Positions 39,681 through 55,817 of a stretch of DNA of 64,000 bases are shown one piece after another. The stretch spans positions 992,001-1,056,000 of the forward strand of contig WGMG01000006.1 in NCBI GenBank assembly GCA_016125185.1, read 5' to 3'. This DNA is from Armatimonadota bacterium (GTDB taxonomy: Bacteria > Armatimonadota > Fimbriimonadia > Fimbriimonadales > Fimbriimonadaceae). Numbering within the stretch: position 1 is the stretch's first letter; each line of letters begins with the position of its first letter. A model generated the notes under the pieces. It was not told the origin of the DNA and searched no databases. It was given only the letters and a program-made list of their open reading frames with translations. The position numbers and the translations under genes are program-made.

Positions 39681-40022
39681 CTAAGCACTGGATGCAGTTT
39701 CTTTAGCGGTGAATGAATGCGATTGCAGGAGCGCGTGTCTTTCCTCCCAATCTGGCATATAGCTTTTGAGAAATGCCTTGAATATTCGACCATGGTTAGG
39801 GGCAAGCTGATGAACGAGCTCATGAACAATCACATACTCGCCAAGCTCCTTAGGTAAATCTAGAAGCTCCGAATTCAAGGTCATCCATCCTCGTCTGCTC
39901 ATTGATCCCCATTTCTTCTTCAGGGGCAGTATTCTAATGCCCGATACTTCTAAACCCATCTTTGTCGCCCAATTACGAGCGGTCCACCGAAGTTCTGCTG
40001 GGCTCAGCCAATGATTTATCAT
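39681..40022 (-). CDS. short YgjP/SprT-like zinc metallopeptidase
   Basis: The 113-residue protein has the zinc motif VIVHELVHQLAPNHGRIFKAFLKSYMPDW, typical of the YgjP-like (DUF45, M48-related) family. GSMSRRGWMTLNSELLDLP precedes it. The family usually has over 200 residues; here only the C-terminal catalytic part is present. YgjP-like genes are often found beside type I restriction genes. It overlaps the cyclase-like gene by 4 nt and is last in the operon. The substrate is unknown. Confidence 0.82.
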   Translation of the reverse strand: MINHWLSPAELRWTARNWATKMGLEVSGIRILPLKKKWGSMSRRGWMTLNSELLDLPKELGEYVIVHELVHQLAPNHGRIFKAFLKSYMPDWEERHALLQSHSFTAKETASSA

Positions 40023-41413
40023 GAGCTAGACTCCCTAACAAACGTCTTAGCATCGCCCTCTGATAGCCGCCTTGTTTCAAATGGAATCGTGGAAATATAG
40101 AAATTTGTAGTATCTCCTGCAAGTCTCCTAGGATAAGTTTCGTAAGCACTTTCCCTAAATAATGAGTCGGATTGAAATTTCAGTTCGTGCATCCAAGCGA
40201 GATTTTCTAGATCAATTGACTCGTGGTTTGGTTCGTCATTCGATTCATTGGGAACCTTGATATCACCTGGTAGTCTGCCGGATGTATTGGTTCGCGTAAC
40301 CGGGAGGTCATGGGACAAAACAGGTACGGTATCACTGAATGTACTACCTAATGTTTGTTCCACTCCATTGGTGGTATGTTGGACCTCTGCCCATCCGATC
40401 GACGAGGCATGGAGCGGTTTTGTAACTGTATATAATCGCTTCCGCTTCTTTGACTCTCTGCATCCAAATATTGACGCAGCTAGCTCTTGCGCGGCAGTGG
40501 CTCCCGACAGCGAGTGAAGGCCGAACGACACGTTAACCCAACTTTCTGTGAATTCATTTATGGTTTCAACTATCGCGGCCTCTACAATCGAAACAAAGAG
40601 GCCAATCCTCACAAGTTGTTTTGAAGCAATCAAAATACTGAATGCGTCATACCCCCATCTCTGGACAGTGATAACTTTGTGACAATACTGCGGAATAGTT
40701 TTTTGAAGTCGAGACTCGATAACTTTAGACGCACGCTCCAAAGCTCGATCGAGCATTATTGGTGAGTCGATCCTGTTCAAGATGTTTGAAGTGCCATCGA
40801 TGTCGACGAATGCTAGCAAAGTCATGTCGTCTTGCTGTGAATGGTCGCTTCTTTTATTGGTCTGGCTCTCGATACTGGCAAGCATCTTCTCCCTGGCAAC
40901 TTTGCATTGTTCAGATTCACCATAGATCAGTTCAGTTTCATCTCCAATCATGCAGAGCCACCTTTTGTATTCTTTAATCCATCCGTAGCTGCTCGAGAAC
41001 GAGTCAAGGTTATTTCTGGCAGCCTTAAGTCTCTCCACCCTCTCAAGTCCGAGGCGTGTCACGCTGTCACTATATGGCCCATTGATTACATCACAGTAAT
41101 GTTGCCCTCCTTCAAAAAAAATATCTAATTGTGACTGCCTGACCCACTTACCTGGCCCAAAGTATTGCCTCATCAGTTCTCCAGTTCTCTGAGCTAACTT
41201 GGCGACTCCATTTTCGTTAATCCCAATTGTCCTCGAAAAAAATGCACGCTCAAGAAACCTTCTATCCGCCTTGCCTTTTGCCAGCATGGCCAAAATCAAA
41301 GCACCTGGTGCCGTCGTAAGTGGCGGAGCTTCTTTAAGCTTGAGGCATTCTCCATCATGAATTCCAAGCTTTATCGGAAATTCGCTAAGGAGGTAAATGT
41401 AAGTTTTTCTCAT
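40019..41413 (-). CDS. winged-helix protein with GGDEF-like nucleotidyl cyclase domain
   Basis: The 464-residue protein is not assignable to a named family. Residues about 1-115 look like an OmpR/BTAD-type winged helix (APGALILAMLAKGKADRRFLERAFFS ... LMRQYFGPGKWVRQ). Residues about 197-335 follow the GGDEF pattern: FVDIDGTSNILNRID (metal Asp204, Asp206), QRWGYDAFSILIAS in the place of R-x-GGDEF-x-IL, then VNVSFGLHS (compare V-S-I-G-I) and FGCRESKKRKRLY. The signature is GYDAF, so the second Gly and the Glu are replaced while Asp256 is kept. About 130 C-terminal residues are unassigned. It may be an active or inactive cyclase. It overlaps the metallopeptidase gene by 4 nt. Confidence 0.6.
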   Translation of the reverse strand: MRKTYIYLLSEFPIKLGIHDGECLKLKEAPPLTTAPGALILAMLAKGKADRRFLERAFFSRTIGINENGVAKLAQRTGELMRQYFGPGKWVRQSQLDIFFEGGQHYCDVINGPYSDSVTRLGLERVERLKAARNNLDSFSSSYGWIKEYKRWLCMIGDETELIYGESEQCKVAREKMLASIESQTNKRSDHSQQDDMTLLAFVDIDGTSNILNRIDSPIMLDRALERASKVIESRLQKTIPQYCHKVITVQRWGYDAFSILIASKQLVRIGLFVSIVEAAIVETINEFTESWVNVSFGLHSLSGATAAQELAASIFGCRESKKRKRLYTVTKPLHASSIGWAEVQHTTNGVEQTLGSTFSDTVPVLSHDLPVTRTNTSGRLPGDIKVPNESNDEPNHESIDLENLAWMHELKFQSDSLFRESAYETYPRRLAGDTTNFYISTIPFETRRLSEGDAKTFVRESSS

Positions 41414-41659
41414 GTCAGAGGTTTGTCAGTCATTAGTGAGTGAGTTGTCAGAGACGATCAGGCTTGAATATTCTCGTTATGCTAGTTAAAAGATGGTTCG
41501 ACCGAGCCACATTGATCTCAGCCGTTGCCCATGTTAACGAGGTGTTCCTCAAAGAGGTGCTTGAAGAAGCGCTGGAATTTAATGATAACGAATCCGCGGC
41601 GAATCTTCGGGTGCCGATCTGGCTAAGTCCAGACGAAGAGGTAAGGCTGATCGATACAA

Positions 41660-44524
41660 TCACAACCGCACCAATCCCATGATCTTGTTGACCAGCTCGA
41701 CCATCTTTGATCCGACCCATGGCCGTACTAACTTGTAAAGCTCGTTGCGAAGGCTCCGTTGCTGATCCAGGTCCCAACCAAACTCAGGATGTCGTTCAAC
41801 AACGTCGTCGATTTGCTTGGCCTGTTCTGGAGTTATGCCATCTGTGTATTGGCGCACCACTATAAAAACGCCGTACGCGTTTTCTGTTAGTCCGAGCTCT
41901 TGTCGTTCCTCATCAGCCCTGACATAATCTTCGGCCAGTTGCTCAAATTCGACTAGGGCTTGCTGAGTCGTGATCTTACGATCTTCAAGGGCTTGCCGGG
42001 CAGACTCTGCACGCTCAGCAATCGAAATGAGGAAGGGCTTGCTATCTCCATCTAGATCTGCTGCCTGAACGATCAACTTATTCAGATTCAATACTTTCGA
42101 TATGTCGGAAGTATCTCCCCGTCGCAGGGCCAATAGCTGATCAGCCCCTAGCGTATGAACTTTGGTTGGCTCTTCAATTTTATACAGTGATGTCGTTTCT
42201 CGGACCAGGCGTTTCGTTTTGTCGGTCAATTCTCGATCAACGTAGATCCTCGGCGAATATGCTTCTCGAATCAAAGCGTAAAGTGCAGTGAGAGCTTGGA
42301 AACTGACAATGTATGGCCGGAGGAATGCGTCGGGAGAGAGGATATCGTACAGTGTTTGCAGCTCCTTGTAAAACTCGAAAAATTGGACCCTCGATTCTTT
42401 ATCTTCGAAGGCTGCTATCGCTCGTTCCTTATCTTTGTCAGTCCAACCTTTGGTGTGGCCAAGATAGCCAGAAGCGTCCTCATCCATTAACTTCTCGAAC
42501 CTCTGCCTCAAAACATCAAGGTTCTGAATGACCGAAGCGACCACATCAGAATCGAACGACAATGCGCGTTCGAGTTTCTCGAAGATGCCCACGAAATCAA
42601 GAACAAATCCTAGAGGTTTAACCAAACCGTCAGCATCTTCGTAGGGCCGATTAACTCTCGCAATCGTCTGCAACAGCACGTGATCACGCATTGGCTTATC
42701 AAGGTAAAGACAGTACAGAATCGGAGCGTCAAACCCGGTGAGCAGTTTTTCAGTAACAATAAGAATCTGAGGATCACCCGACTTGGCGATGAACGACTTC
42801 CGGATTGCCTTCTCTTGATCTTCAAGAAGGTGGAATTCCTTCAGATGTTCCGGATCGTTATGCCCGGCGGACATGACCACAGCCGATGCCTCCGGTGGTA
42901 GATGCTTGTCAAGTGCCTTCTTGTAGAAAGCACATGCTTCGCGGTCCACGGCTACCAAGAACGCCTTGAAACCCATTGGCTGAACGTTGGTTGTGAAGTG
43001 GTTAGCCACATAGGCTGCGACAGCCTCGACGCGCTCAGGGGACTTCATGAGTTCCTTGAGCTCAACAGCTTTATCGAGAAGAGCGTTGAGCTCCTCGACG
43101 TCTGCCACCCCCTCAGCCTCGGTCAATGAAAGGAACTGCTTTTCGAGAGTTTCCCTATCAACCAGGAGTTCCGAAGGGGAAAGGGCATAGTGGAGCGGAA
43201 GAGTCGTGCCGTCTCTAATCGATTCGGCGATATTGTACTTATCCAGGTATCCACGTTCGTCATCGATACCGAATATCTTGAATGTGCCTTTCCCTCTACT
43301 CAATCGATCAATGGGAGTGCCAGTGAAACCTATTAACGTTGCATTAGGCAAAGCCGCGAAGAGATAGTTTCCTAAATCTCCACCTGTTGAGCGATGTGCT
43401 TCGTCAGCCAATACTATAATCGCTTCTCGAGTGTTGATGTCCGCGGGTATGTCGTCGAACTTGTGGATCATTGTCACGATCAGACCGCGGAAGTCCTCCT
43501 TCAAGAGACGTCGCAAGTGATCCTTGCTTTGCGTGACTTGGAATGACCCAATTCCATAAGCACTCACATTCGAAAAGAGCTGAGATTCAAGCTCGTTCCG
43601 GTCGACCAACATGATCACGGTCGGCTTCTCCTTTCCGGTCTCACGCAGCAACCGAGCCGCGATCGTGATCATCGTGAGGGTCTTCCCTGACCCTTGCGTG
43701 TGCCAAACCAAACCGCGTTGCTTGTGTGGTTCGCGTACTCGCTCAACGACTTTCTCGACTGCACGAGTTTGATGTTGTCTTAATATCAGCTTGCTGACCT
43801 GGTCGTCCTTTTCGAGAAAGACGATATAGTCGCGCAATACTCTGAGGAATCGAGTCGGATCAAAGAATGCCTTAACTTTGATCTCGAAGTTGCCGTCTTG
43901 CTCATCCTTCCAGTTAAAGACGTTTTTCCGGCTTGTCGCCCATGTGGCACCGTAATAGAAATCGAGAAGTTGTGTGACTTCAAACACTTGAGGGGCGACA
44001 AGCATCTCGGGCGTTTCGCGATGATATCTTCTGAGCTGCTCAATTCCTTCGCCAAGACCATCGGGCTTCCCGGCGTTCTTTGCCTCTGCAATCGCAACCG
44101 GGATGCCGTTGATGAGGAACACCACATCAGCGCGATTGGTGTACACCGTCGCCTTATGTCGCCATTCGATCGTGGAATGGAATCGGTTGGTCGCAACGTT
44201 CTCGAAGTCGATAACCCGGACGTTTCGCTCTCGGCTCTCAGCGGGCACGAAGATGCTCATTTCGCCGCGCATCCAACGCAACAGCTCTCTGTTCCCCTGG
44301 ATACTTGGATGTGCGAGCCGTAACCTTCGTAACACCTCAAAAGCCAGCTCTCGTGTCATAAAGGTCGCGTTGAAAGCAATCAGTCGCTCGATCAGAGTCT
44401 CCGTAAAGAAAAGTCCGGACACGTCGCCTCTCAGAGCGATCGCATCTTCGGGGCCGATCTTCTCCCAGCCAACTTCGTCGGCATAATTCCACAGGGGCAT
44501 TTGGACGGCAGAGAGCTCACTCAT
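41660..44524 (-). CDS. hsdR: type I restriction enzyme R subunit
   Basis: The 954-residue protein has a PD-(D/E)XK nuclease domain (RADVVFLINGIPVAIAEAKN: Asp133, Glu147, Lys149) and an SF2 motor with Walker A TQGSGKT (276-282), DEAH at 374-377, FTGTPIDR and motif VI region QTIARVNRPY. The C-terminal helical region would contact the methyltransferase. It translocates and cuts DNA lacking the methylation mark. It lies last of the three hsd genes, separated from hsdS by six accessory genes, 87 nt after dprA-like. Confidence 0.95.
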   Translation of the reverse strand: MSELSAVQMPLWNYADEVGWEKIGPEDAIALRGDVSGLFFTETLIERLIAFNATFMTRELAFEVLRRLRLAHPSIQGNRELLRWMRGEMSIFVPAESRERNVRVIDFENVATNRFHSTIEWRHKATVYTNRADVVFLINGIPVAIAEAKNAGKPDGLGEGIEQLRRYHRETPEMLVAPQVFEVTQLLDFYYGATWATSRKNVFNWKDEQDGNFEIKVKAFFDPTRFLRVLRDYIVFLEKDDQVSKLILRQHQTRAVEKVVERVREPHKQRGLVWHTQGSGKTLTMITIAARLLRETGKEKPTVIMLVDRNELESQLFSNVSAYGIGSFQVTQSKDHLRRLLKEDFRGLIVTMIHKFDDIPADINTREAIIVLADEAHRSTGGDLGNYLFAALPNATLIGFTGTPIDRLSRGKGTFKIFGIDDERGYLDKYNIAESIRDGTTLPLHYALSPSELLVDRETLEKQFLSLTEAEGVADVEELNALLDKAVELKELMKSPERVEAVAAYVANHFTTNVQPMGFKAFLVAVDREACAFYKKALDKHLPPEASAVVMSAGHNDPEHLKEFHLLEDQEKAIRKSFIAKSGDPQILIVTEKLLTGFDAPILYCLYLDKPMRDHVLLQTIARVNRPYEDADGLVKPLGFVLDFVGIFEKLERALSFDSDVVASVIQNLDVLRQRFEKLMDEDASGYLGHTKGWTDKDKERAIAAFEDKESRVQFFEFYKELQTLYDILSPDAFLRPYIVSFQALTALYALIREAYSPRIYVDRELTDKTKRLVRETTSLYKIEEPTKVHTLGADQLLALRRGDTSDISKVLNLNKLIVQAADLDGDSKPFLISIAERAESARQALEDRKITTQQALVEFEQLAEDYVRADEERQELGLTENAYGVFIVVRQYTDGITPEQAKQIDDVVERHPEFGWDLDQQRSLRNELYKLVRPWVGSKMVELVNKIMGLVRL

Positions 44525-44611: not shown

Positions 44612-45808
44612 TCAGCCTTTATTGGCCTCGCCAATTTCTGTGTTATGGTCCGGCGATTCAAACAGGCTGGCATCTTCCGGCTTCTTCTTTCGTGACTTTT
44701 TCGCCTTTTCAGGAACAGATATCGCCAGTTCACTTTGCAAGGGCTGAGGATCAACAATTCCGTCCAACAATGCGGCCTGCGTTAATTCATTCAAAAATGC
44801 TTCTGGGCAATCTCGAAGAACAGTTAAGATTTCTTCAGTCGGGCGCAATGGGTTGCCTAACAATCGCCGAAGTGTCAGCGTAGTTTGCGAAGTTTCTGGA
44901 ATGTCTTCAATTGGCCGTTCCGAACGAATCAATTTCTGCGGCTGGTGCGCAAAGGACATGTCTATCCTAATTGCTCCACGTTCTACGAGTTCCCGATCTG
45001 CTCGAGCACCTTTGAGGACGTAAACAGTCTTTCCTTCTTTCAAGGCTTCTAAGGCTCCGGCCCACGTTCCTCCTCGTTTCGGTTCACATTCAACAACCAA
45101 TGCAGCGTCAGCGCAGGCATAGGCAAGGCGGTTTCGTGCCATTGCATTACCAACGTCAAATCTCGCCTCTGGATGAACCTCAGACATTAGGCACATCCGG
45201 CCCTCTCGAATGGCATCTCGATAAGGTTTTTTCCCGGATTCTTTGAGTAAAGAATCAGCAAGCACTCCTACGACGGTTCCGCTTCCTACAATGCCAGCTA
45301 ACATGGCATAGGAATCCACACCGCGGGCTCCACCAGAAACAACTGTGATTTGATTGTCCGAACAGGCTCTTCCAATTTCTGCGGCACTATTCAGGCGCGC
45401 ATCGCTAGCATTTCTAGAGCCGACAATAGCCAAGGCACGCTCGCTAAAAGCGTTTGGACTGCCATAGCCGAAAAGTAGGGCTGGAGCTCGGTGTTTGAGT
45501 TGTTTGAACCGAGATGGATAATCTGGATCTGCCCAGGACACTATCCAAATGCCAGCAGACAGCCATTTATCTACTGACTGAAATACTCCCAATCCACGAT
45601 TAAGTAAGCCTGAGAGTCGATGGTGATCGAGTGGAATGAGGGAAAGGTCAAACCGACCTTCTAGGAGTGCTTCGATACCACCTGGAGCAGAGTTTAGAGT
45701 TCTTCGAAGATCGAGCAACTCAGCATTAGACAGCGGCTTCGAGCCGTTGACAGCCCATCGGCCGGTTAAAAGGATAACTAACTGCGTGAACGGGGTCAGG
45801 CTACTCAT
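44612..45808 (-). CDS. DprA/SMF-like Rossmann-fold protein
   Basis: The 398-residue protein has a helical N-domain and a DprA-type Rossmann domain: ALAIVGSRNASDARLNSAAEIGRA, ITVVSGGARGVDSYAMLAGI, VVGVLADSLLKES, and SEVHPEARFDVGNAMARNRL. Housekeeping DprA loads RecA in transformation. This copy is in a defence operon and directly follows (8-nt overlap) a RecQ-phosphoribosyltransferase gene. In ShosTA systems a DprA homologue is paired with a phosphoribosyltransferase toxin. An analogous antitoxin or regulator role is inferred. The Lys-rich C-terminus (EKAKKSRKKKPED) is extra. Confidence 0.85.
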   Translation of the reverse strand: MSSLTPFTQLVILLTGRWAVNGSKPLSNAELLDLRRTLNSAPGGIEALLEGRFDLSLIPLDHHRLSGLLNRGLGVFQSVDKWLSAGIWIVSWADPDYPSRFKQLKHRAPALLFGYGSPNAFSERALAIVGSRNASDARLNSAAEIGRACSDNQITVVSGGARGVDSYAMLAGIVGSGTVVGVLADSLLKESGKKPYRDAIREGRMCLMSEVHPEARFDVGNAMARNRLAYACADAALVVECEPKRGGTWAGALEALKEGKTVYVLKGARADRELVERGAIRIDMSFAHQPQKLIRSERPIEDIPETSQTTLTLRRLLGNPLRPTEEILTVLRDCPEAFLNELTQAALLDGIVDPQPLQSELAISVPEKAKKSRKKKPEDASLFESPDHNTEIGEANKG

Positions 45809-47897
45809 CGTCTCCCCGATGTGTAGCCGAGGTTAGTGCGAATGGAATCACTGCTTCGACACCAGCCTGTCGAAGCAGAGCACCCACAATCGTAAATGTC
45901 CAGCGCGAATCAACCATGTCGTCAACCAACAGTACAGTACCCTCAAGAACCTCGCTGATAGCAAAAGCTCCATCCAAGTTTGAGGATTGATGGTGTGAAT
46001 TCCGTTGACTCTTCTGAGGAGGTGTCTCCTTGATTTTTTCAACCGCTTGGAGATACGGCACACCTAGTTTAGCAGCTAAACGTTGTGAGAAGTCTGGGAC
46101 GGTCGGGCTTCTTAGTGAAGGTACCGACGTAATCCACGCAACTCGACTCGCAACACCTGTTCTTTCAAGTCCTTCAATCGCCGCAATCACGAGGTCGTCA
46201 CGAAACTTGCCAGCATGCTTATCCTCTCTAGTCCAGGTTCCGATTCCTGGATCGCCGAAGTATGAAAGGCATAAACCTTGTTCGCATCGAAACTCTGGCT
46301 TGATGTTGCCTGAGAAACCATATTGTGATAGTGCTCCGGATTCCCAGCGTTTCCTAGGTTCAAACAAGAACTCGGACTCATTTAGGAACCGCTGAGCCTC
46401 GATCAGTGAGGCATCCGTATAGCCAGTCGGAATGACTTCTCCACCGATACAATTGGAACACTGTCCACATGGCTCGGCTGTTTCGTCATTGAGCTCAAAG
46501 CGGACTTGCTCCATGAAGCAATCGGAGCTTGAAGCAAAAGCAACGAACCTTGCCCGCTCTTCCTCACGTCTTTCTTTGAGTTGCCGATCACGCTCTTTGT
46601 CGTAAGTGAATGCCTGAGGGGTTCTCGACCAAGTTGACCCTAGCTTCAAAATAGGAGACGGCTCGAGAATAACCAGGCATTTGAGGACCTTGTCCACTTC
46701 GCCCTTCCTTAAGTCCACTGCAGCCATGATATTGGGAACGCTCAATCCGCTTTCAGATTCATCAAGTGTAGTCAGGATTAGATCAATTTCTTCCGCCGAG
46801 GGGGCCGCCCGCTCTATGAAGTATTCGTGAATGGACTCGTCTTCTTGTCCAAGGAAAAGTACCGCTGTCGCAGAATCTATTGCGCGACCCGCCCTCCCGA
46901 TTTGCTGGTAATACGCGACAAGGTTGCCGGGGCTCTGGTAGTGAACTACAAAGCCCAAATCGGGCTTGTCAAATCCCATTCCAAGAGCTACAGTCGAGAC
47001 GAGTGCCTTAACATCATTGTTGAGCAACATAGCCTCACGTTCGATTCGAAGCTTATTAGACTCTTCCGGATCGGGGCCAAGATCTGCATGATATGCCTCG
47101 ACCCGATGCCCCCTCACTTGAAGCCATTTTGTTACTCGATCCGCATCACGCTTGGTGAGGGTGTAAATTATGCCACTTCCGTCAAGGTCATCAAGATGAT
47201 CACTCAACCAGGCTAGTCTTTCCGCCGCATTGAAGCCGTTGATAACCTGTATTTTCAAGCTTCGCCGTGCAAGGGAGCCTCGAATGAGTGGAGTCGAATT
47301 TCCAATTTGTCGAAGAACGTCTTCGACAACTCGATCGTTTGCAGTGGCTGTAGTTGCCAGAACGGAAGTTGTGGGAGGCAGATTGCGAATGAGCCGCCCA
47401 AGTCGCTGATAGTCTGGCCGGAAGTCGTGCCCCCAGTCAGAGATACAATGGGCCTCGTCAATAACCAAGAGTCCAACTTTTGCAAGGCTCGATGAAGCCA
47501 CAAATTGCTGAAAATCTTCATTGGCGAACCGTTCCGGACTGATGAGGAGAAGGTCAATCTCGTTTGCAAGTAGCTTTTGCTCGATCGATTCCCACTTTTC
47601 GGGGTTCGAGCTAGTGTAGTGCTCTGCCCTGATGCCAAGATTCTGCGCTGCTACGACTTGGTTCCGCATCAAGGAAAGCAATGGAGAGACTACAAGGGTT
47701 GGACCTCGACCGGCGTCTCTCAGAACGCGCGTTGCAATGAAATAAACCATGCTTTTGCCCCACCCTGTTGCCTGAACGACAAGTGCACGATACGGTGGCT
47801 CAATCACAGCCCTTATGGCTTCTTCCTGGCCCGAGTGAAAACTTGCGTTTGCATTCTTGAGCCCCTCCCGTAACAGCTCTAGTAGGTTTGCGCTCAT
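45801..47897 (-). CDS. RecQ helicase fused to a phosphoribosyltransferase domain
   Basis: The 698-residue protein has an N-terminal RecQ helicase: Walker A ATGWGKS (43-49), LLVIDEAHCISDWGHDFRPDY (DEAH 147-150), TTATA, YYQQIGRAGR. A zinc site, CGQCSNC, follows near residue 470. The last 190 residues are not RecQ: they end with VLLVDDMVDSRWTFTIVGALL (from about 655), the PRPP-loop signature of phosphoribosyltransferases (ComF-like). It is inferred to couple DNA unwinding to a nucleotide-modifying domain. It overlaps the GIY-YIG gene by 4 nt and the DprA-like gene by 8 nt. Confidence 0.88.
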   Translation of the reverse strand: MSANLLELLREGLKNANASFHSGQEEAIRAVIEPPYRALVVQATGWGKSMVYFIATRVLRDAGRGPTLVVSPLLSLMRNQVVAAQNLGIRAEHYTSSNPEKWESIEQKLLANEIDLLLISPERFANEDFQQFVASSSLAKVGLLVIDEAHCISDWGHDFRPDYQRLGRLIRNLPPTTSVLATTATANDRVVEDVLRQIGNSTPLIRGSLARRSLKIQVINGFNAAERLAWLSDHLDDLDGSGIIYTLTKRDADRVTKWLQVRGHRVEAYHADLGPDPEESNKLRIEREAMLLNNDVKALVSTVALGMGFDKPDLGFVVHYQSPGNLVAYYQQIGRAGRAIDSATAVLFLGQEDESIHEYFIERAAPSAEEIDLILTTLDESESGLSVPNIMAAVDLRKGEVDKVLKCLVILEPSPILKLGSTWSRTPQAFTYDKERDRQLKERREEERARFVAFASSSDCFMEQVRFELNDETAEPCGQCSNCIGGEVIPTGYTDASLIEAQRFLNESEFLFEPRKRWESGALSQYGFSGNIKPEFRCEQGLCLSYFGDPGIGTWTREDKHAGKFRDDLVIAAIEGLERTGVASRVAWITSVPSLRSPTVPDFSQRLAAKLGVPYLQAVEKIKETPPQKSQRNSHHQSSNLDGAFAISEVLEGTVLLVDDMVDSRWTFTIVGALLRQAGVEAVIPFALTSATHRGDDE

Positions 47898-48745
47898 TCG
47901 GATGCCTCCTGGATGGACTTCAAAGTCCTGCCTTTCTCGTCAACCCATTCCGTGCGGCCATTAGCATTACGACCCAACACCACCGAAGCGGCGGTTGAGG
48001 GTGAAGAGAAAGCGTAGTCTTGCGCGAAGACAAGATGATCCCCTTCGACCAACAGCACCTTTGAGTCGACAAGGGATTGACGTCGTTGCTTGTGACCACT
48101 TGGAAATGAAGATGCTTCTTTCTGGCTAGCCTGTGAACCTTTCTTAACAACAAATTCGCTTCCTGCTTCGTAGCCATGCGAGGTCAGCCCTTTGGCAACA
48201 ATCTTGAGGAGAGAACCAGAAACGGCTTTCTTAATTGGAGGAGGCGTTTCAAAGTAGTCAAGTCCAACCAGCGGGAAGCAAAGTCGCATTTCATCCAGAA
48301 AACCTTCAGCTTCGGCAATGTCCGCCTCGGACAGGCTCGGCTGGCTTCCTGCGTTGCCATTGTGAAGTTTTGCTCGATTGGCTTTTGTCGACAGATCGAT
48401 AAGTCTCCATTCCAAATATCTTCCGTGAGCCTTGTTGAGATTGTTATCTTTGCTAACAAAGAACACCACTTGTTGCCAATCAAACTTCGATTCCTTGCCA
48501 TGCGAATTTAGGCGGGTTCGAATTTCGTCAGCTTCGCCTATGTAAAGATCTGGCACGACCCCATCACCCTCACCAACAAGCAAATAGACGCCGGTTCGCT
48601 CAAACTCAGGGCGATTTCTCTTGGCACCGAACAGTGAACGCGGACACACAACCCCGAGACCGCTCCAATTAGTTTTTTCGATCAGTTTCAACCCTTCCGG
48701 CTCGCCATCCGGAAGAAAAAGTCGAATTGAATAACCCCTAGCCAT
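47894..48745 (-). CDS. GIY-YIG nuclease with DUF4357 domain
   Basis: The protein of 283 residues starts MARGYSIRLFLPDGEPEGL; a longer frame from 48805 is less likely. The GIY-YIG fold reads TGVYLLVGEGDG with LYIGEADEIRTRLNSH and the Glu in RYLEWRLIDL. The C-terminal DUF4357 domain spans from about GLTSHGYEAGSEFVVKKGS to the end. Such proteins occur in restriction and phage-defence loci; the target is unknown. It overlaps its neighbours on both sides. Confidence 0.87.
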   Translation of the reverse strand: MARGYSIRLFLPDGEPEGLKLIEKTNWSGLGVVCPRSLFGAKRNRPEFERTGVYLLVGEGDGVVPDLYIGEADEIRTRLNSHGKESKFDWQQVVFFVSKDNNLNKAHGRYLEWRLIDLSTKANRAKLHNGNAGSQPSLSEADIAEAEGFLDEMRLCFPLVGLDYFETPPPIKKAVSGSLLKIVAKGLTSHGYEAGSEFVVKKGSQASQKEASSFPSGHKQRRQSLVDSKVLLVEGDHLVFAQDYAFSSPSTAASVVLGRNANGRTEWVDEKGRTLKSIQEASE

Positions 48746-49619
48746 TTTGTATCTTCTTACTCCTTGTGGGTTTTGGCCCGAATGATGTTCCTCGATGCAG
48801 TCCAAGAATTGTTTCGACTTGTCCCGCTGCTCTCACCACATTGTACAAATCCAGTGATCCGACGATTTCTCGATCCTTCACATAGTTACTAAGGTATTTC
48901 TCCGATTTCGACTCGATTCCGGTTCGCGATGCGACCAAATAAGCCACCGACTCCGCCTCAAGTTCAATTTGCGCATGCGATAAGCCAGTTCGGTTTGGCA
49001 CCTTTAGTTCTGAATCATTCCCCAGGTGTCCTAGGAATAAATGGCCCAATTCATGTGCGATCGTTACAAGCTGCGTCGCTGGCGCGTGATTCCGGTTAAC
49101 CATCATTCTGTAAAAGCCACGTGGCTTTGGCTTTTCCTCTCGGCCGGTGACTTGAATACTTCCAGCCGAATTGTCTCCACCGTCAAAAAACGCGACTCTG
49201 ATGCTCTTATGTGTAAGGTTCAGCGACATTTTCGCAATTTCGGCAGCAGTAATTTCTCCTCTTGCCCAAAATGCCGTTACGTCAGACGGTAGATCCGAGC
49301 CTTCAGTATCTTGAACATCGTACACGAAGGCAACCGGGCCAAATGGCCAGAGGATCATCAACGGCCGAGCCCCGGGTTTAGGATGTCGACCGAATTTAAA
49401 CTTCCAATCGTAAGCCGATGCGGCAAACGACAGTCCAGGTTTTTGCATGTGAAGCAACATGGCATTAAATGGTGCAAAGCTCTTTAGCTTCGAAGTGAAA
49501 CTAAGAAGCTCCATATACGACTGTGTGGTCGTGTAAAGCCTGGAATCGTCAAGAAGCTGATCAATTAGTGATCGAGCTTCCGCTTCCTCAAACAATGAAA
49601 CTTGGTCAATGATAGTCAT
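48738..49619 (-). CDS. ArdC/ImmA-like metallopeptidase
   Basis: The 293-residue protein has an N-terminal ssDNA-binding-like region as in ArdC (LLSFTSKLKSFAPFNAMLLHMQKPG, GARPLMILWPFGPVAFVYDV). The C-terminal zinc protease motif is TIAHELGHLFLGHL, with the third ligand in ELEAESVAYLVA. ArdC and ImmA/IrrE proteins act in antirestriction or repressor cleavage; a regulatory or effector role in this locus is inferred. It overlaps both neighbours (4 and 8 nt). Confidence 0.85.
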   Translation of the reverse strand: MTIIDQVSLFEEAEARSLIDQLLDDSRLYTTTQSYMELLSFTSKLKSFAPFNAMLLHMQKPGLSFAASAYDWKFKFGRHPKPGARPLMILWPFGPVAFVYDVQDTEGSDLPSDVTAFWARGEITAAEIAKMSLNLTHKSIRVAFFDGGDNSAGSIQVTGREEKPKPRGFYRMMVNRNHAPATQLVTIAHELGHLFLGHLGNDSELKVPNRTGLSHAQIELEAESVAYLVASRTGIESKSEKYLSNYVKDREIVGSLDLYNVVRAAGQVETILGLHRGTSFGPKPTRSKKIQNG

Positions 49620-50035
49620 TCCAGCATCTCCTTTATGACATTCGCGACCAGAGCCGTATCGGCTTCAATTTGATGGTTGTCGCCTTTGCCTGAGAGTGCG
49701 AGACATCGGAACGGAACACTTGGATAAAGCCGCTCAGCAAGGCACTCGCACATTTCCACGGTGTTCTTCGCGTTACCCACATAGGCAGGCAATAGAATGA
49801 TTAGTTTAAGAGGAGCTGGGTGCCAGAAAACATCGAGGACGGCACCACGAACCTGCTTCGGCGTCCGGCTCTCGATTTCGACGGCGATTTTTCCCGCAAC
49901 AACTGCATCGATCGAGCAGTTCATTCTTGACGTGATCGGGTGCCCCGTTCCGTATTCCTGGAAGGAAACACCAACATGGGCTGCCGCAGTGCGCACCACG
50001 GACTTTCCGTAGGCGTCATGCCCCACGTTGCTCAA
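49616..50035 (-). CDS. small PD-(D/E)XK-like protein
   Basis: The 139-residue protein is not a family I can name. CSIDAVVAGKIAVEIESRTPKQVRGAVLDVF has Asp43 and the Glu53-x-Glu55 pair at the spacing of a PD-(D/E)XK nuclease core, followed by a helix and the strand LKLIILLPAY. The last acidic position is Glu and a Lys is missing from the ExK site, so activity is uncertain. It overlaps the ArdC-like gene by 4 nt. Confidence 0.55.
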   Translation of the reverse strand: MSNVGHDAYGKSVVRTAAAHVGVSFQEYGTGHPITSRMNCSIDAVVAGKIAVEIESRTPKQVRGAVLDVFWHPAPLKLIILLPAYVGNAKNTVEMCECLAERLYPSVPFRCLALSGKGDNHQIEADTALVANVIKEMLE

Positions 50036-50096: not shown

Positions 50097-50915
50097 TCAA
50101 GGGGTGGACCTCCTTGTAAGGTTTAAGACCACAGGATCTTTCAAGTCGGAGTACCATATCCGGAGTTCTCCCTCAGGGGGATCAGTATGGCCGTCGTGAG
50201 GATCAGCGGAATCAATCGACAGCTGCTTCTCAAGCGCAAGAACGCGATTCAAGGAATCCGCCAATACAGACAATCCTGATTCTCCTCCCGCCCATGCACT
50301 CCTAAATGCACCGACTGCCACCTGAAAGTTCTCTACGTGGTTCAGGCTTAAGCCTACGAAAAGCTTTTCGACTATTCTCTTGTTCGGTTCATCAGAATAG
50401 CCAACAACGGGACCTATCCACTCGGGCGTACTTATCCACGATTCTCCACTCCCCATCGCATGACATGCCCCAAACAGGACGATAAGGCCATGCCCGGCTC
50501 CATTGCCGATATCTTCCGCAACTGCGTTAAAAGTTCTTCCCTCGGCAACAACAGGATTTACAATCGCCGGGCCGGGGCACTGCCAAAGCCGCTGACAGGT
50601 TTCAGAAATGGTTTCCCAAAGCTCTAAGTAGGTAACGTGCTGCTCCGCTGCGACCGTCTGCATCAACCCTTCTCGATCACCATGAGCCATAACTAAAAGG
50701 ACTTGTAGGTCACGTCCGTGCTTTGCGACAAATCCTGCTAGCTGTGTCAGGAACAGGTCAGCACAGGACTCAAAGACGACTTCAGCAACTGGCGGTTCTA
50801 CCGCTGAGAACCTGAGACCTTGAGTCTGATTCCAAAGGTCGAAAATGTAATCTGCACTGGACAACAAGGCAGGGTAACGGGTATCGCGCCATTCGAAAAT
50901 GCCGAATGCACTCAT
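50097..50915 (-). CDS. caspase/CHAT-like predicted protease
   Basis: The 272-residue protein has the strand-His and strand-Cys arrangement of clan CD proteases: LQVLLVMAHGDREG (His78) and GLIVLFGACHAMG (Cys151), with VTYLELWETI between, where CHAT/caspase-like proteins have their L-x-L...L strand. IGPVVGYSDEPNKRIVEKLFVGL follows, as is usual after the catalytic Cys. The family call is by pattern only. The overlap with hsdS (4 nt) places it in the restriction operon, where a suicide protease is plausible. Confidence 0.55.
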   Translation of the reverse strand: MSAFGIFEWRDTRYPALLSSADYIFDLWNQTQGLRFSAVEPPVAEVVFESCADLFLTQLAGFVAKHGRDLQVLLVMAHGDREGLMQTVAAEQHVTYLELWETISETCQRLWQCPGPAIVNPVVAEGRTFNAVAEDIGNGAGHGLIVLFGACHAMGSGESWISTPEWIGPVVGYSDEPNKRIVEKLFVGLSLNHVENFQVAVGAFRSAWAGGESGLSVLADSLNRVLALEKQLSIDSADPHDGHTDPPEGELRIWYSDLKDPVVLNLTRRSTP

Positions 50916-52201
50916 ACCACCACCTCACCAAAAAGCGGGGAGACGGATAGGCGGCCTGACATCAGCTCTTCGAGCATGGCACGAAAGAGTTCTTCGAAGA
51001 GGTTTGCTTCGGCCTCGAGAGCTTTTAGTTTGCGCTCCGTTCCGTATACTGCATCGCATATATCGTCTTGCTCGTCGGCTGGAGGCAACCCTACCGGAGT
51101 CGTACCAATAACGTTCTGGTTAAGGTTAGGCATCGTGACTCCGATTGCGTTTTTTGCCAGGTGGACCTGGCAAAACTCGGTTGATATCCACAAGGCTAAG
51201 AACCTGGGCCTGACAAGCTCTTTCTTGACTCGGATTCGGAAACAGCCCGTTCCGCAAAGCCAATCCTTGTGCCTTTCAGTGGCCATACAAAACTTTCCAA
51301 AGTCTCCTCGACGTGCGATCAAAATATCTCCCTCTTGAAGTGCATGTCGAGCCAGCTCTTGAGCCTTTTCAGGTGTAACCTTTGGCAACTTATCTTCAAA
51401 GATCGTGTTAAACCCCATGTGTGTCGGGTTAACCACAGGAATTCCAACTTCCACGTAGTCATAAGTGTGCAACTGACTTCCGAATGGGCCCGTCTGAATG
51501 CCTCCCTTTCCTGGTGCTAACTCGCCAATCTCAGATACTTCCCAACTTTCGGGCAAGGGGCCGATGGAGGTATCGCGGCGGGGTTCATTTTGGGTGCCGT
51601 AGGTGAAAAGGTGAGCCATGAGGGCGGCCTTCCGCTCTCGCTCCAACTCAATCTCCTTCAGCCGCGACAGTCGCGCGATCTGGATGGCTTCGAGTGTTGA
51701 GACGATCCCACGTTGGAACTCCTCGGAATGAAGAGGGATTAACAGATCCTGAAGGTCACCACGCGATACCCCTTGGATGGTTGCTCCGCGCATCCGGCCA
51801 CGAAAGTGCGCCTGAGCTGACTCAATCTTCAATGCGAAGGCTGCAAAAATCGGGTCAATGGTCGGCTTAAGTCGGACCGCAGTAATGTCTTGGCTTATTG
51901 CTATCGGAATACGATTCACCGCAGCCTTTCCAACCCCAACTCTTGTGCCTACCAGAAGTGCGTTTGGTTCGACGACTCTCGTTGAGCAACTCTCAACACC
52001 AAGTTTTGTGATTGTTCTTGGTGATGATGAGACTTCGATTTGGTCCTCTGCAATCCAGGCCGTCGAGATGAAACCAATATCTCCATTCCAGCATTCAGGT
52101 TTTGAACTCGGCGGGGTCCCGCCATTGGCGTACGACAGGGCTAAGTCGCCGAATCTGACATACGTGAGAGCATTGCCTCGATCCTGTGGTTCGTGCTTCA
52201 C
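50912..52201 (-). CDS. hsdS: type I restriction-modification specificity subunit
   Basis: The 429-residue protein starts at GTG. Two target-recognition domains are separated by a long helix: TRD1 has ALSYANGGTPPSSKPECWNGDIGFISTAW with a helix at ARLSRLKEIELERERKAALMAHLF, and TRD2 has GPLPESWEVSEIGEL with KLKALEAEANLFEELFRAMLEELMSGRL as the second spacer. It sets the DNA target of HsdM and HsdR. It abuts the TM/winged-helix gene and overlaps the caspase-like gene by 4 nt. Confidence 0.93.
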   Translation of the reverse strand: MKHEPQDRGNALTYVRFGDLALSYANGGTPPSSKPECWNGDIGFISTAWIAEDQIEVSSSPRTITKLGVESCSTRVVEPNALLVGTRVGVGKAAVNRIPIAISQDITAVRLKPTIDPIFAAFALKIESAQAHFRGRMRGATIQGVSRGDLQDLLIPLHSEEFQRGIVSTLEAIQIARLSRLKEIELERERKAALMAHLFTYGTQNEPRRDTSIGPLPESWEVSEIGELAPGKGGIQTGPFGSQLHTYDYVEVGIPVVNPTHMGFNTIFEDKLPKVTPEKAQELARHALQEGDILIARRGDFGKFCMATERHKDWLCGTGCFRIRVKKELVRPRFLALWISTEFCQVHLAKNAIGVTMPNLNQNVIGTTPVGLPPADEQDDICDAVYGTERKLKALEAEANLFEELFRAMLEELMSGRLSVSPLFGEVVV

Positions 52202-53118: not shown

Positions 53119-53567
53119 AAAGCTCCTCCTGATTTCTCAAAGCACGTGTGACACTGCTTAACTATTCGATACTCGGGAGGCGTTAATCTTCGACACTGGG
53201 GGCACCTGCGAAAGGACGATCTTCTTGCTATTTTTGCCATTCGGATCAGACGTCCGAGTTTGCCTACACTTAATTCAGATCCATTGATCTCACCGACGAT
53301 TCGCCCAAAGTCGAACACAACTTTGGGAACCTGCCCAAACCATTTCACAGAGATTGGAGCAACCTTGATGAGCGATGCAGAGATGAGCAAGAGAGAATGT
53401 TCTCCAATCTGAACCATATTTGCTTCACAAAAACCCAAGCAGCGCATTGCATCTTCGACTGACTCGAATCGTTGCCCAATAAACTCAACTTCGTTAGCTT
53501 GGATTTGTCGGCGACCTGTCGGTTTCGAGTGGTCGCTACATTTCTCACTAATCTCAACTAAATTCAT
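53115..53567 (-). CDS. unknown protein with C-terminal zinc ribbon
   Basis: The 150-residue protein has no recognised family. Residues about 118-140 hold CPQCRRLTPPEYRIVKQCHTC, a CxxC...CxxC zinc ribbon. The N-terminal part is beta-rich with one hydrophobic patch (SLLLISASLIKVAPISVKWFG). It overlaps both the HEPN gene and the 81-residue gene by 4 nt. Confidence 0.6.
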   Translation of the reverse strand: MNLVEISEKCSDHSKPTGRRQIQANEVEFIGQRFESVEDAMRCLGFCEANMVQIGEHSLLLISASLIKVAPISVKWFGQVPKVVFDFGRIVGEINGSELSVGKLGRLIRMAKIARRSSFRRCPQCRRLTPPEYRIVKQCHTCFEKSGGAF

Positions 53568-54241
53568 TGCTTGCAGCTTCTCCGGATGTCCTCGTTGATC
53601 TGATCCAAATATGCTCGAGAAACATCTCTGATTTGCTGACGAATTTCTGAAAACATAGAATCAACTGCCCGGTCGGCAATGAAGCTCGCGGGCGTATTGA
53701 ACTGGGACATGATATTGCGAACTTGTGTCATGAAATCATCGTTCAAGTCCCGTTTGGCTCTTGCGACCGAGTCGCCTTGGCCAGTTGAGTTAGGTGGCGA
53801 GGAGAGCCATCCGGAAGAACAATGCTTTAAGGCTTCGAACACTGAATCACGATAGATAATGCTCTTCTTTTCCACCAGGGACCAAACTCGCTCCTTGTCT
53901 AGAGTCTGAAGTTCATGAGCGAGGTGGTCGCGAATTTCGAAGAGTTGCTCCCAATCGGCTTCAGTCAGTCCGACCTTTGAAACATCAGGATTAGCTTGTT
54001 CAATCCTTCTTGTTCCACGAGGACGCTTTGCCGTCAGATTCTCGTCGCAGAATTGTTTGGCAGATTCACCAGCGCAAAGCAGACGGTACATAATCGCAGC
54101 TTGGTTTTCACGAGAAGTTAAGAAATGGTCTTTTCCTGCTCGTGAATACTCAATCGCCTCAGCGAGACCGTCGTAAATCCCGGCTAGATGAGGAAGACTA
54201 TTGGCGGTGGGCATCAATTTTTGGAGGTCACTCAGCAGCAT
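53564..54241 (-). CDS. HEPN-like domain protein
   Basis: The 225-residue, mostly helical protein has EQLFEIRDHLAHELQTLD, a match to the HEPN R-x4-6-H motif (Arg104, His109), and helices AAIMYRLLCAGESAKQFCDENL like those of HepT-type RNases. HEPN domains often act as RNases in toxin-antitoxin and phage-defence systems. The C-terminal 100 residues are helical and unassigned. It overlaps hsdM by 14 nt. RNase activity is inferred from the motif only. Confidence 0.6.
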   Translation of the reverse strand: MLLSDLQKLMPTANSLPHLAGIYDGLAEAIEYSRAGKDHFLTSRENQAAIMYRLLCAGESAKQFCDENLTAKRPRGTRRIEQANPDVSKVGLTEADWEQLFEIRDHLAHELQTLDKERVWSLVEKKSIIYRDSVFEALKHCSSGWLSSPPNSTGQGDSVARAKRDLNDDFMTQVRNIMSQFNTPASFIADRAVDSMFSEIRQQIRDVSRAYLDQINEDIRRSCKQ

Positions 54242-55817
54242 GAAGTCCTCCGAGTCCCAACTTATTCAGAATAGATTCAAGTTCCCGATCCGCATTTTCT
54301 CGTGCTAGACGAGCTTCTCCTAGATCGACGAGAATGTCGGCCAGGTCTCGATGCGTAGCCTTATCGCCGACTTGGATGTAGGCCGATGGAGATAAGTTGT
54401 AGTCATTGCCACAAATTTCTTCGCTAGAGAGAATGCGACTAAACTTCTCCCGCTCTTCCCACGCATGGTAGACCTCGGCTACCGCCGATACGCCCTCGTC
54501 AGTGAAGATGTTTTTCGGACGCCCCTTCACGAACAGCGTGCTGGCGTTGATCACCAGAACCTGGTTCCTTCTTGTTTCTGGTTTGCCTCTCCGGAAGACC
54601 ATCACCAGACCAGCAGCCGTGGTGTTGTAAAACAGGTTCTCTGGCAGAAGGATGACCGCTTCAATCAGATCCTTCTCGATGAAAGCAGCTCGAACAGTCT
54701 TTTCTTTATTGTTGCTATCACCACCAGAGCCTCGAGAGGCCGCTCCAGTATCGATAACCATGGCCGCAATACCTGTGTCGTTTAAGCTCGCCACCATGTG
54801 CTGAGCCCATGCCCAGTCCGCACTGCTACTTGGCGGATATCCGAGCTTAAACCGCTGGTACGAGTCGTTCTCGAAAAACTCCTCTGGATAGCCCTTCTGA
54901 TTCCACATTGGATTAGCAATGACCCGGTCGAACTGCATGAGGCCTCCGCCCGCCGTCGAGTGCCGCGGATTTCGGAAAGTGTCCCCTGTAAGGAACCGTT
55001 GACCCTCATAACCGTGGAGGATGGCGTTCATCATGGCCATAGCCCAAGTGGTCGGATTAAGTTCCTGGCCGTTGAGCCGAGGGAGCCCCTTTGATCCATG
55101 TTTTTCTTTATAAGCATCTACCGCCTTGATCAGAAGACCTGCCGAACCCATCGTTGGATCATAAATTGTGCTCTGGGGTTTAGGGTCTAAGATCAAACCC
55201 ATCATGTGGCCCACTTCCATGGGTGTGAAGAACTCGCCTGCGCTTTGCCCTTGACCTTCCGCAAATTTTCTAAGTAAATATTCGTACGCATGGCCAAGAA
55301 CATCTGGGCTCGTCTCATCGAGTCCGATCGCATGGCGACTCAGAACTTCAATGAGAGCCTCGAGGCGGTGATCGTCCAGAATTCGATGGCCGGCTTGTGT
55401 GGCGGCGTAGTCAACCACGTTCAACACGCCATCAAGAGGAGCATTGAGACGAGCGACCTCGCGCATGCAATCGGTCACAAACTGGCCAAGCGTTCCATCG
55501 GCTGCATGATTACGAAGATGCCTCCAAGTGCAGTGAGAGGGAATGTAAAAGCGAACGAGTGGAGCTCGGCCCGATTTCAGGGCATCGGAATGGTCTTCCT
55601 CAACTACTTTGTACGCTTCTTCTTCTCCCCAGATCTCTCGTTGCTCTTGGAACTCGTCGTCGAAAACATCGCTGAGTCTCTTGTAGAAGACCAGGGGCAA
55701 AATGAAATCTTTGAACTTTGGCGCGTCGGTGCCGCCTCGTATAGCGCACGCAGCGTCCCAAAGCCATTGCTCCATTTGGGGGACGGTTAAATGCTCTTTC
55801 ATGTTTGCCTGCGCCAT
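54228..55817 (-). CDS. hsdM: type I restriction-modification DNA methyltransferase subunit
   Basis: The 529-residue protein has an N-terminal helical domain (LTVPQMEQWLWDAACAIRGG, KFKDFILPLVFYKRLSDVFDDEF), a SAM-binding motif TIYDPTMGSAGLLIKAVD and motif IV at RVIANPMWNQKGY. Motif IV is normally NPPF/NPPY; here it is NPMW, an unusual change at a catalytic loop. GLVMVFRRGK and LSPSAYIQVGD follow. It methylates adenine in the HsdS target. It is first in the operon, and its promoter should lie in 55818-55970. Confidence 0.95.
   Translation of the reverse strand: MAQANMKEHLTVPQMEQWLWDAACAIRGGTDAPKFKDFILPLVFYKRLSDVFDDEFQEQREIWGEEEAYKVVEEDHSDALKSGRAPLVRFYIPSHCTWRHLRNHAADGTLGQFVTDCMREVARLNAPLDGVLNVVDYAATQAGHRILDDHRLEALIEVLSRHAIGLDETSPDVLGHAYEYLLRKFAEGQGQSAGEFFTPMEVGHMMGLILDPKPQSTIYDPTMGSAGLLIKAVDAYKEKHGSKGLPRLNGQELNPTTWAMAMMNAILHGYEGQRFLTGDTFRNPRHSTAGGGLMQFDRVIANPMWNQKGYPEEFFENDSYQRFKLGYPPSSSADWAWAQHMVASLNDTGIAAMVIDTGAASRGSGGDSNNKEKTVRAAFIEKDLIEAVILLPENLFYNTTAAGLVMVFRRGKPETRRNQVLVINASTLFVKGRPKNIFTDEGVSAVAEVYHAWEEREKFSRILSSEEICGNDYNLSPSAYIQVGDKATHRDLADILVDLGEARLARENADRELESILNKLGLGGLHAAE

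Follow-up and report, generated by a model that had tools for sequence, protein, structure and literature searches.

An orphan protein with a candidate palm-like domain resembling GGDEF enzymes, encoded within a type I restriction operon of an Armatimonadota bacterium

A type I restriction operon in an Armatimonadota bacterium carries, between hsdR and the gene of a YgjP-like metallopeptidase, an inserted gene whose product resembles GGDEF domains in its middle portion, at the level of motifs and beyond chance. This portion probably forms a palm. As a lead the finding is genuine and promising but unproven, and its present value is that of a clear test candidate, because the case rests on one orphan sequence.

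Results

The open reading frame that a first-pass annotation had proposed was borne out, with an ATG start and a product of 464 aa, on the minus strand of the window (the whole 64,000-nucleotide stretch that was analysed; Table 1). Its TGA overlaps the ATG of the downstream YgjP gene by 4 nt (ATGA). The gene has a GC content of 0.451 and a GC3 of 0.443; most of the cargo genes around it share this low GC3, whereas host genes nearby have a GC3 of 0.70-0.75. The annotation's further view that the gene belongs to a restriction operon or defence locus was likewise correct, as type I hsdM, hsdS and hsdR are accompanied by defence genes on the same strand. The order along that strand is hsdM, the HepT-like gene, genes without a family assignment, hsdS, two more such genes, the M78 peptidase gene, PDC-S14, PsyrT, PsyrA, hsdR, the orphan gene and, at the end, the YgjP-like metallopeptidase gene.

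Table 1. Features of the orphan gene and of the restriction operon, in positions of the window.
Feature	Position	Strand	Basis
YgjP-like metallopeptidase (PF01863), conserved hsdR partner	39681..40022	-	family match; related operons
Orphan protein, 464 aa	40019..41413	-	ORF; no family, PDB or database relative
C-terminal region, residues 349-464, polar	40019..40369	-	sequence, model
Segment inserted between hsdR and YgjP relative to related operons	40023..41659	.	operon comparison
Putative palm-like (GGDEF-superfamily-like) domain, residues 192-348	40370..40840	-	profile tests, AlphaFold fragment model
SFGLHS, residues 296-301, counterpart of GGDEF (V)SIGVA strand	40511..40528	-	profile tests
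RWGYDAFSIL, residues 252-261, counterpart of R-x-GGDEF-x-IL	40631..40660	-	profile tests; flanking model strands
FVDIDG, residues 202-207, first metal Asp motif (Asp204, Asp206)	40793..40810	-	sequence, HHalign register, model strand
N-terminal region, residues 1-190, helical	40844..41413	-	sequence, model
HsdR, type I restriction subunit	41660..44524	-	family match
PsyrA (DprA/SLOG-like) and PsyrT (RecQ-like helicase) defence pair	44612..47897	-	
PDC-S14 defence candidate (DUF4357; weak GIY-YIG match)	47894..48805	-	
M78 (IrrE-like) peptidase domain protein	48738..49619	-	
HsdS specificity subunit	50912..52201	-	
HepT-like protein	53564..54241	-	
HsdM methyltransferase	54228..55817	-	

In related operons of the phylum, whose HsdR proteins are 46-61% identical to the one studied here, YgjP stands directly after hsdR, usually with an ATGA overlap. 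The pair is found in seven of the eight closest related operons, and the seven have no gene between its members, whereas about 1.6 kb separates hsdR from YgjP in the operon of the window. Since YgjP abuts or overlaps hsdR in seven operons without a gene of the orphan type, YgjP is the partner of hsdR, and the coupling of the orphan to the metallopeptidase that had been suggested is one of position only. Compared with these operons, the orphan gene has been inserted between the pair and has assumed the ATGA coupling. It shares with other cargo genes of type I restriction operons (PsyrTA, PDC-S14 and others) its location inside hsdMSR, its low GC3 and its strand, and differs from them in occupying the site between hsdR and YgjP, which is geneless in the related operons examined. 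An 80-aa open reading frame on the opposite strand (41440-41682, +) fills the interval from hsdR to the orphan gene and overlaps the end of hsdR. It is accompanied by a promoter-like site at 41445-41472, and neither the phylum nor plasmids yielded a relative of this frame.

Within the reach of the searches made, the protein is an orphan. Pfam, PADLOC, NCBIfam, PHROGs and PDB sequences gave no relevant match to it, and no relative was returned by a protein search of 291 genomes of the phylum, by tblastn of plasmid and phage records, by pattern scans of viral contigs, or by two scans of 84,980 species genomes, one with six 8-residue patterns and the other with the pattern RxGYD[AS]F[SA][IV]L. 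Scans of this kind reveal a relative only if it is close or matches the motif exactly; in the motif-scan alignments the columns outside the motif were given as X, and alternatives were allowed at a few motif columns. Three candidates were rejected: a Piscirickettsia protein, which was a chance match with the motif absent; a Brevibacillus helix-turn-helix protein, a weak match judged to be due to chance; and an ATPase matched by the C-terminus of the orphan over 50 residues, judged in the same way.

The three motifs named in the annotation are present at the residues listed in Table 1, and its numbering of Asp204, Asp206 and Asp256 is correct. The signature reads GYDAF (residues 254-258), not GG[DE][DE]F; the second Gly and the Glu are missing while the metal Asp positions are kept, as had been claimed. 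A GGDEF profile was made from 30 domains found in the same phylum. Scored with it, residues 186-345 ranked 2nd of 50,001, the remainder being 50,000 composition-preserving shuffles of the same residues. HHalign against this profile placed 99 columns in register over residues 200-311 (P 4.2e-5), a nominal value that is to be discounted because the hypothesis was read from the same sequence. Furthermore, in a comparison with 758 other open reading frames of the same genome and the window, drawn from 40 stretches of 20 kb, the orphan came 6th of 759, right behind five frames that score as GGDEF proteins (HMMER and HHalign agree), and was first among the 754 that do not score as such; the frame ranked next after it aligned over only 20 columns. 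The palm sequence, when reversed, gave no match to the GGDEF profile.

This signal depends mainly on RWGYDAFSIL. It was gone when residues 250-262 were masked (P 0.045) and weaker when the SFGLHS segment was masked, which argues that what matches is a series of short, correctly ordered motifs and not the domain as a whole; when the domain was split, GGDEF was the profile that residues 241-345 fitted best (rank 5 of 50,001). The first Asp and the signature Asp lie 52 residues apart in the orphan, as against 43 in 29 of the 30 GGDEF domains. The alignment with GGDEF that had been described as holding position by position is therefore upheld as to the order of the motifs, which exceeds chance, but not as to this spacing. 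Pfam gave no GGDEF (PF00990) match for the full protein at E 1 or for the fragment at E 10, nor did NCBIfam, and no RxxD inhibitory site, which is optional before the signature, occurs in KTIPQYCHKVITVQRWGYDAF. What survives of the proposed GGDEF-like domain is a profile similarity beyond chance with the metal Asp positions kept, but it has no match to a curated GGDEF model. Relative to PF00990, the orphan shares the D-x-D motif on the first strand, the R-x-G-x-D-x-F-x-I-L hairpin, the (V)SxG strand and, in a low-confidence model, the order of strands and helices; it differs in having GYDAF in place of GG[DE][DE]F, in the nine additional residues between the Asp positions, in lacking the RxxD site, and in falling below any Pfam score.

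Profiles of Cas10-type palms (17 members) and of class III cyclases (29 members) were built from the same phylum. With the former, residues 186-345 showed no similarity (rank 24,551 of 50,001 with the 17-member profile), and Pfam returned no match of the orphan to mCpol (PF18182). The distance of 52 between the Asp residues compares with 48-52 in the 17 Cas10-type palms, and the catalytic Asp6 and Asp57 of KpOptS are 51 apart by its numbering; this palm makes cyclic dinucleotides although the GGDEF motif is nearly absent from it (PMC12657218). The likeness to the palms of mCpol/OptS (Panoptes) and Cas10 lies in two catalytic Asp residues at a comparable distance and in the dispensability of an intact GGDEF motif, and the differences are that the orphan has no Cas10 profile similarity, no PF18182 match and no recognised partner of the OptE type. 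A partner effector with a nucleotide-binding or membrane domain was not recognised among the operon neighbours, several of which are without a family assignment. PF18182 has no match in the window's own genome; its matches elsewhere in the phylum (L124-L153) resemble Cas10/Cmr2-type palms (DGDxMG...GGDDVLA) and lie in frames mostly of 560-750 aa.

With the class III profile, residues 186-345 ranked 219th of 50,001 against the shuffles and 15th of 759 among the genome's frames, the latter not significant. This was the profile that residues 190-240 fitted best (rank 20 of 50,001), and the second half of the domain gave no match to it. The orphan is like class III cyclases (PF00211) in its D-I-x-G-T-S start, which recalls DIxGFT, and in the Ala that follows the Asp, as in GDAF; the residue at this place in class III cyclases is Gly or Ala (e.g. 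IGDAF in L158). It is unlike them in having G-Y-D for G-D, in addition to the lack of a significant whole-domain match. Judged by sequence models, the orphan is not a member of GGDEF, Cas10 or mCpol.

AlphaFold, when run on the whole protein without an alignment, gave a pLDDT of 32.6, and the single-sequence model of residues 192-348 is also of low confidence (pLDDT 52.7, pTM 0.53). The order in this fragment is strand-helix-strand-strand-helix-strand-helix-strand, with a strand at 7-13, a helix at 27-48, strands at 55-62 and 66-72, a helix at 79-97, a strand at 105-110, a helix at 114-125 and a strand at 136-140. The check by structure prediction that the annotation had proposed thus returned a topology of the palm type, with low confidence. 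In the model, strand 1 ends with Asp204 (fragment residue 13), and Gly254-Tyr255-Asp256 (fragment residues 63-65) are predicted to form the turn between two strands, which is consistent with Asp204 and Asp256 sitting where the metal ligands of a palm belong. A Foldseek search with the fragment model found nothing at E < 0.001; its matches were a mixture of generic ferredoxin-like folds and cyclases, namely soluble guanylate cyclase at rank 1 (E 0.014) and soluble adenylyl cyclase at ranks 4, 8, 17 and 50. VIA-align matched generic folds, with a Z no higher than 9.3 (rmsd 3.0-3.3 over 98-104 aligned positions), and structures of GGDEF, Cas10 and mCpol were absent from the 50 matches listed for the model. 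These structure matches are consistent with a palm and are not proof of one. On the C-terminal side of the domain, residues 349-464 are probably largely unstructured.

Discussion

We consider the best explanation as a whole to be a cargo gene with a divergent palm domain that binds NTP and metal, to which we would give an even chance. The orphan gene would probably have been acquired horizontally and placed as cargo between hsdR and YgjP, and the middle third of its product would be a divergent palm of the GGDEF/cyclase superfamily, a reading of this domain that is probable when taken by itself. Asp204, at the end of strand 1, and Asp256, in the hairpin turn, would be the kept positions that hold metal and triphosphate, and the palm would most likely bind NTP with metal. 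The gene, the operon, the insertion and a resemblance of motifs that exceeds chance are established by these data, from which we infer the fold, the binding of NTP and any role in defence; given a palm, binding of nucleotide and metal is likely.

The second Gly of GGDEF lines the triphosphate site in GGDEF enzymes, and a Tyr at this position would argue against ordinary GTP binding. As both this Gly and the Glu have been lost, a classical diguanylate cyclase is very unlikely. The loss of the Glu speaks against this activity and not against every activity, since KpOptS is active and Ala occurs at this place in class III enzymes. Even so, the altered signature and the lack of a recognised receptor effector make a sensor or regulator somewhat likelier than an active enzyme. 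We tentatively suggest that the protein may regulate or sense the defence genes around it in a nucleotide-dependent manner, a role that falls a little short of an even chance; that it makes a nucleotide signal with altered chemistry, by analogy with mCpol/OptS without an intact GGDEF motif, is conceivable but doubtful.

It could be argued that GYDAF is a coincidence in an unrelated alpha/beta (ferredoxin-like) protein, the orphan being cargo of unrelated function. The signal comes largely from one short segment, the structure matches are generic, no curated model matches, and the motif was picked from the sequence itself, all of which agree with such an explanation. We nevertheless regard it as unlikely, given the second rank among the 50,001 sequences of the shuffle comparison, the first place among the 754 frames that do not score as GGDEF, and the presence of three motifs in the right order with predicted strands and helices to match.

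That the orphan is a new type of active nucleotide cyclase or polymerase, with a cyclic or linear product that controls a neighbouring defence effector, also appears unlikely to us. Both metal Asp positions are kept, enzymes of the class III family, where Gly or Ala follows the signature Asp, can do without the Glu, and enzymes of the mCpol/OptS kind are active even though little is left of the GGDEF motif (PMC12657218). Against this, Tyr replaces the second Gly of GGDEF, the operon holds no recognised effector of the receptor type, and no relative was found that could show conservation. The more specific proposal of a new nucleotide-signalling enzyme, carried as cargo in the type I operon, intermediate in its motifs between GGDEF and class III cyclases and translationally coupled to the hsdR-YgjP unit, is improbable. 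Last, a winged-helix DNA-binding regulator of the restriction operon with a degenerate GGDEF as its ligand-binding domain is quite improbable, for although the first 110 residues follow the BTAD-type order by eye and the HHalign path ends at a matching Asp-Val, the winged helix named in the annotation was not supported by a profile of 19 BTAD-type winged helices (residues 1-125, rank 2420 of 50,001, HHalign P 0.18), has no Pfam match and is absent from the genome matches listed.

To our knowledge, nucleotide-signalling immunity (Cas10, CBASS, Panoptes, Pycsar) is separate from type I restriction. If there is indeed a palm inside this restriction operon, a nucleotide signal may be coupled to restriction or stand guard over it, and a new signalling enzyme, if true, would connect DNA restriction with immunity based on second messengers. 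Were the domain an inactive sensor, it would still represent a palm family outside every curated model searched.

Other genes of the operon

Several neighbours of the orphan gene merit description in their own right. The PsyrTA pair and the PDC-S14 candidate are embedded together between hsdS and hsdR (44612-48805, -). A 272-aa neighbour (50097-50915, -) contains VLLVMAHGD and GLIVLFGACHAMGS, which by eye only form a His/Cys pattern of CHAT/caspase-like proteases; it has no Pfam, PADLOC or plasmid match, and its NCBIfam match is at chance level only. In a 139-aa neighbour (49616-50035, -), which has no significant family match, IDAVVAGKIAVEIES resembles a PD-(D/E)XK nuclease core. Beside hsdM, a 150-aa open reading frame overlaps the HepT-like gene (53564-54241, -) by four bases, in the layout of a toxin-antitoxin pair.
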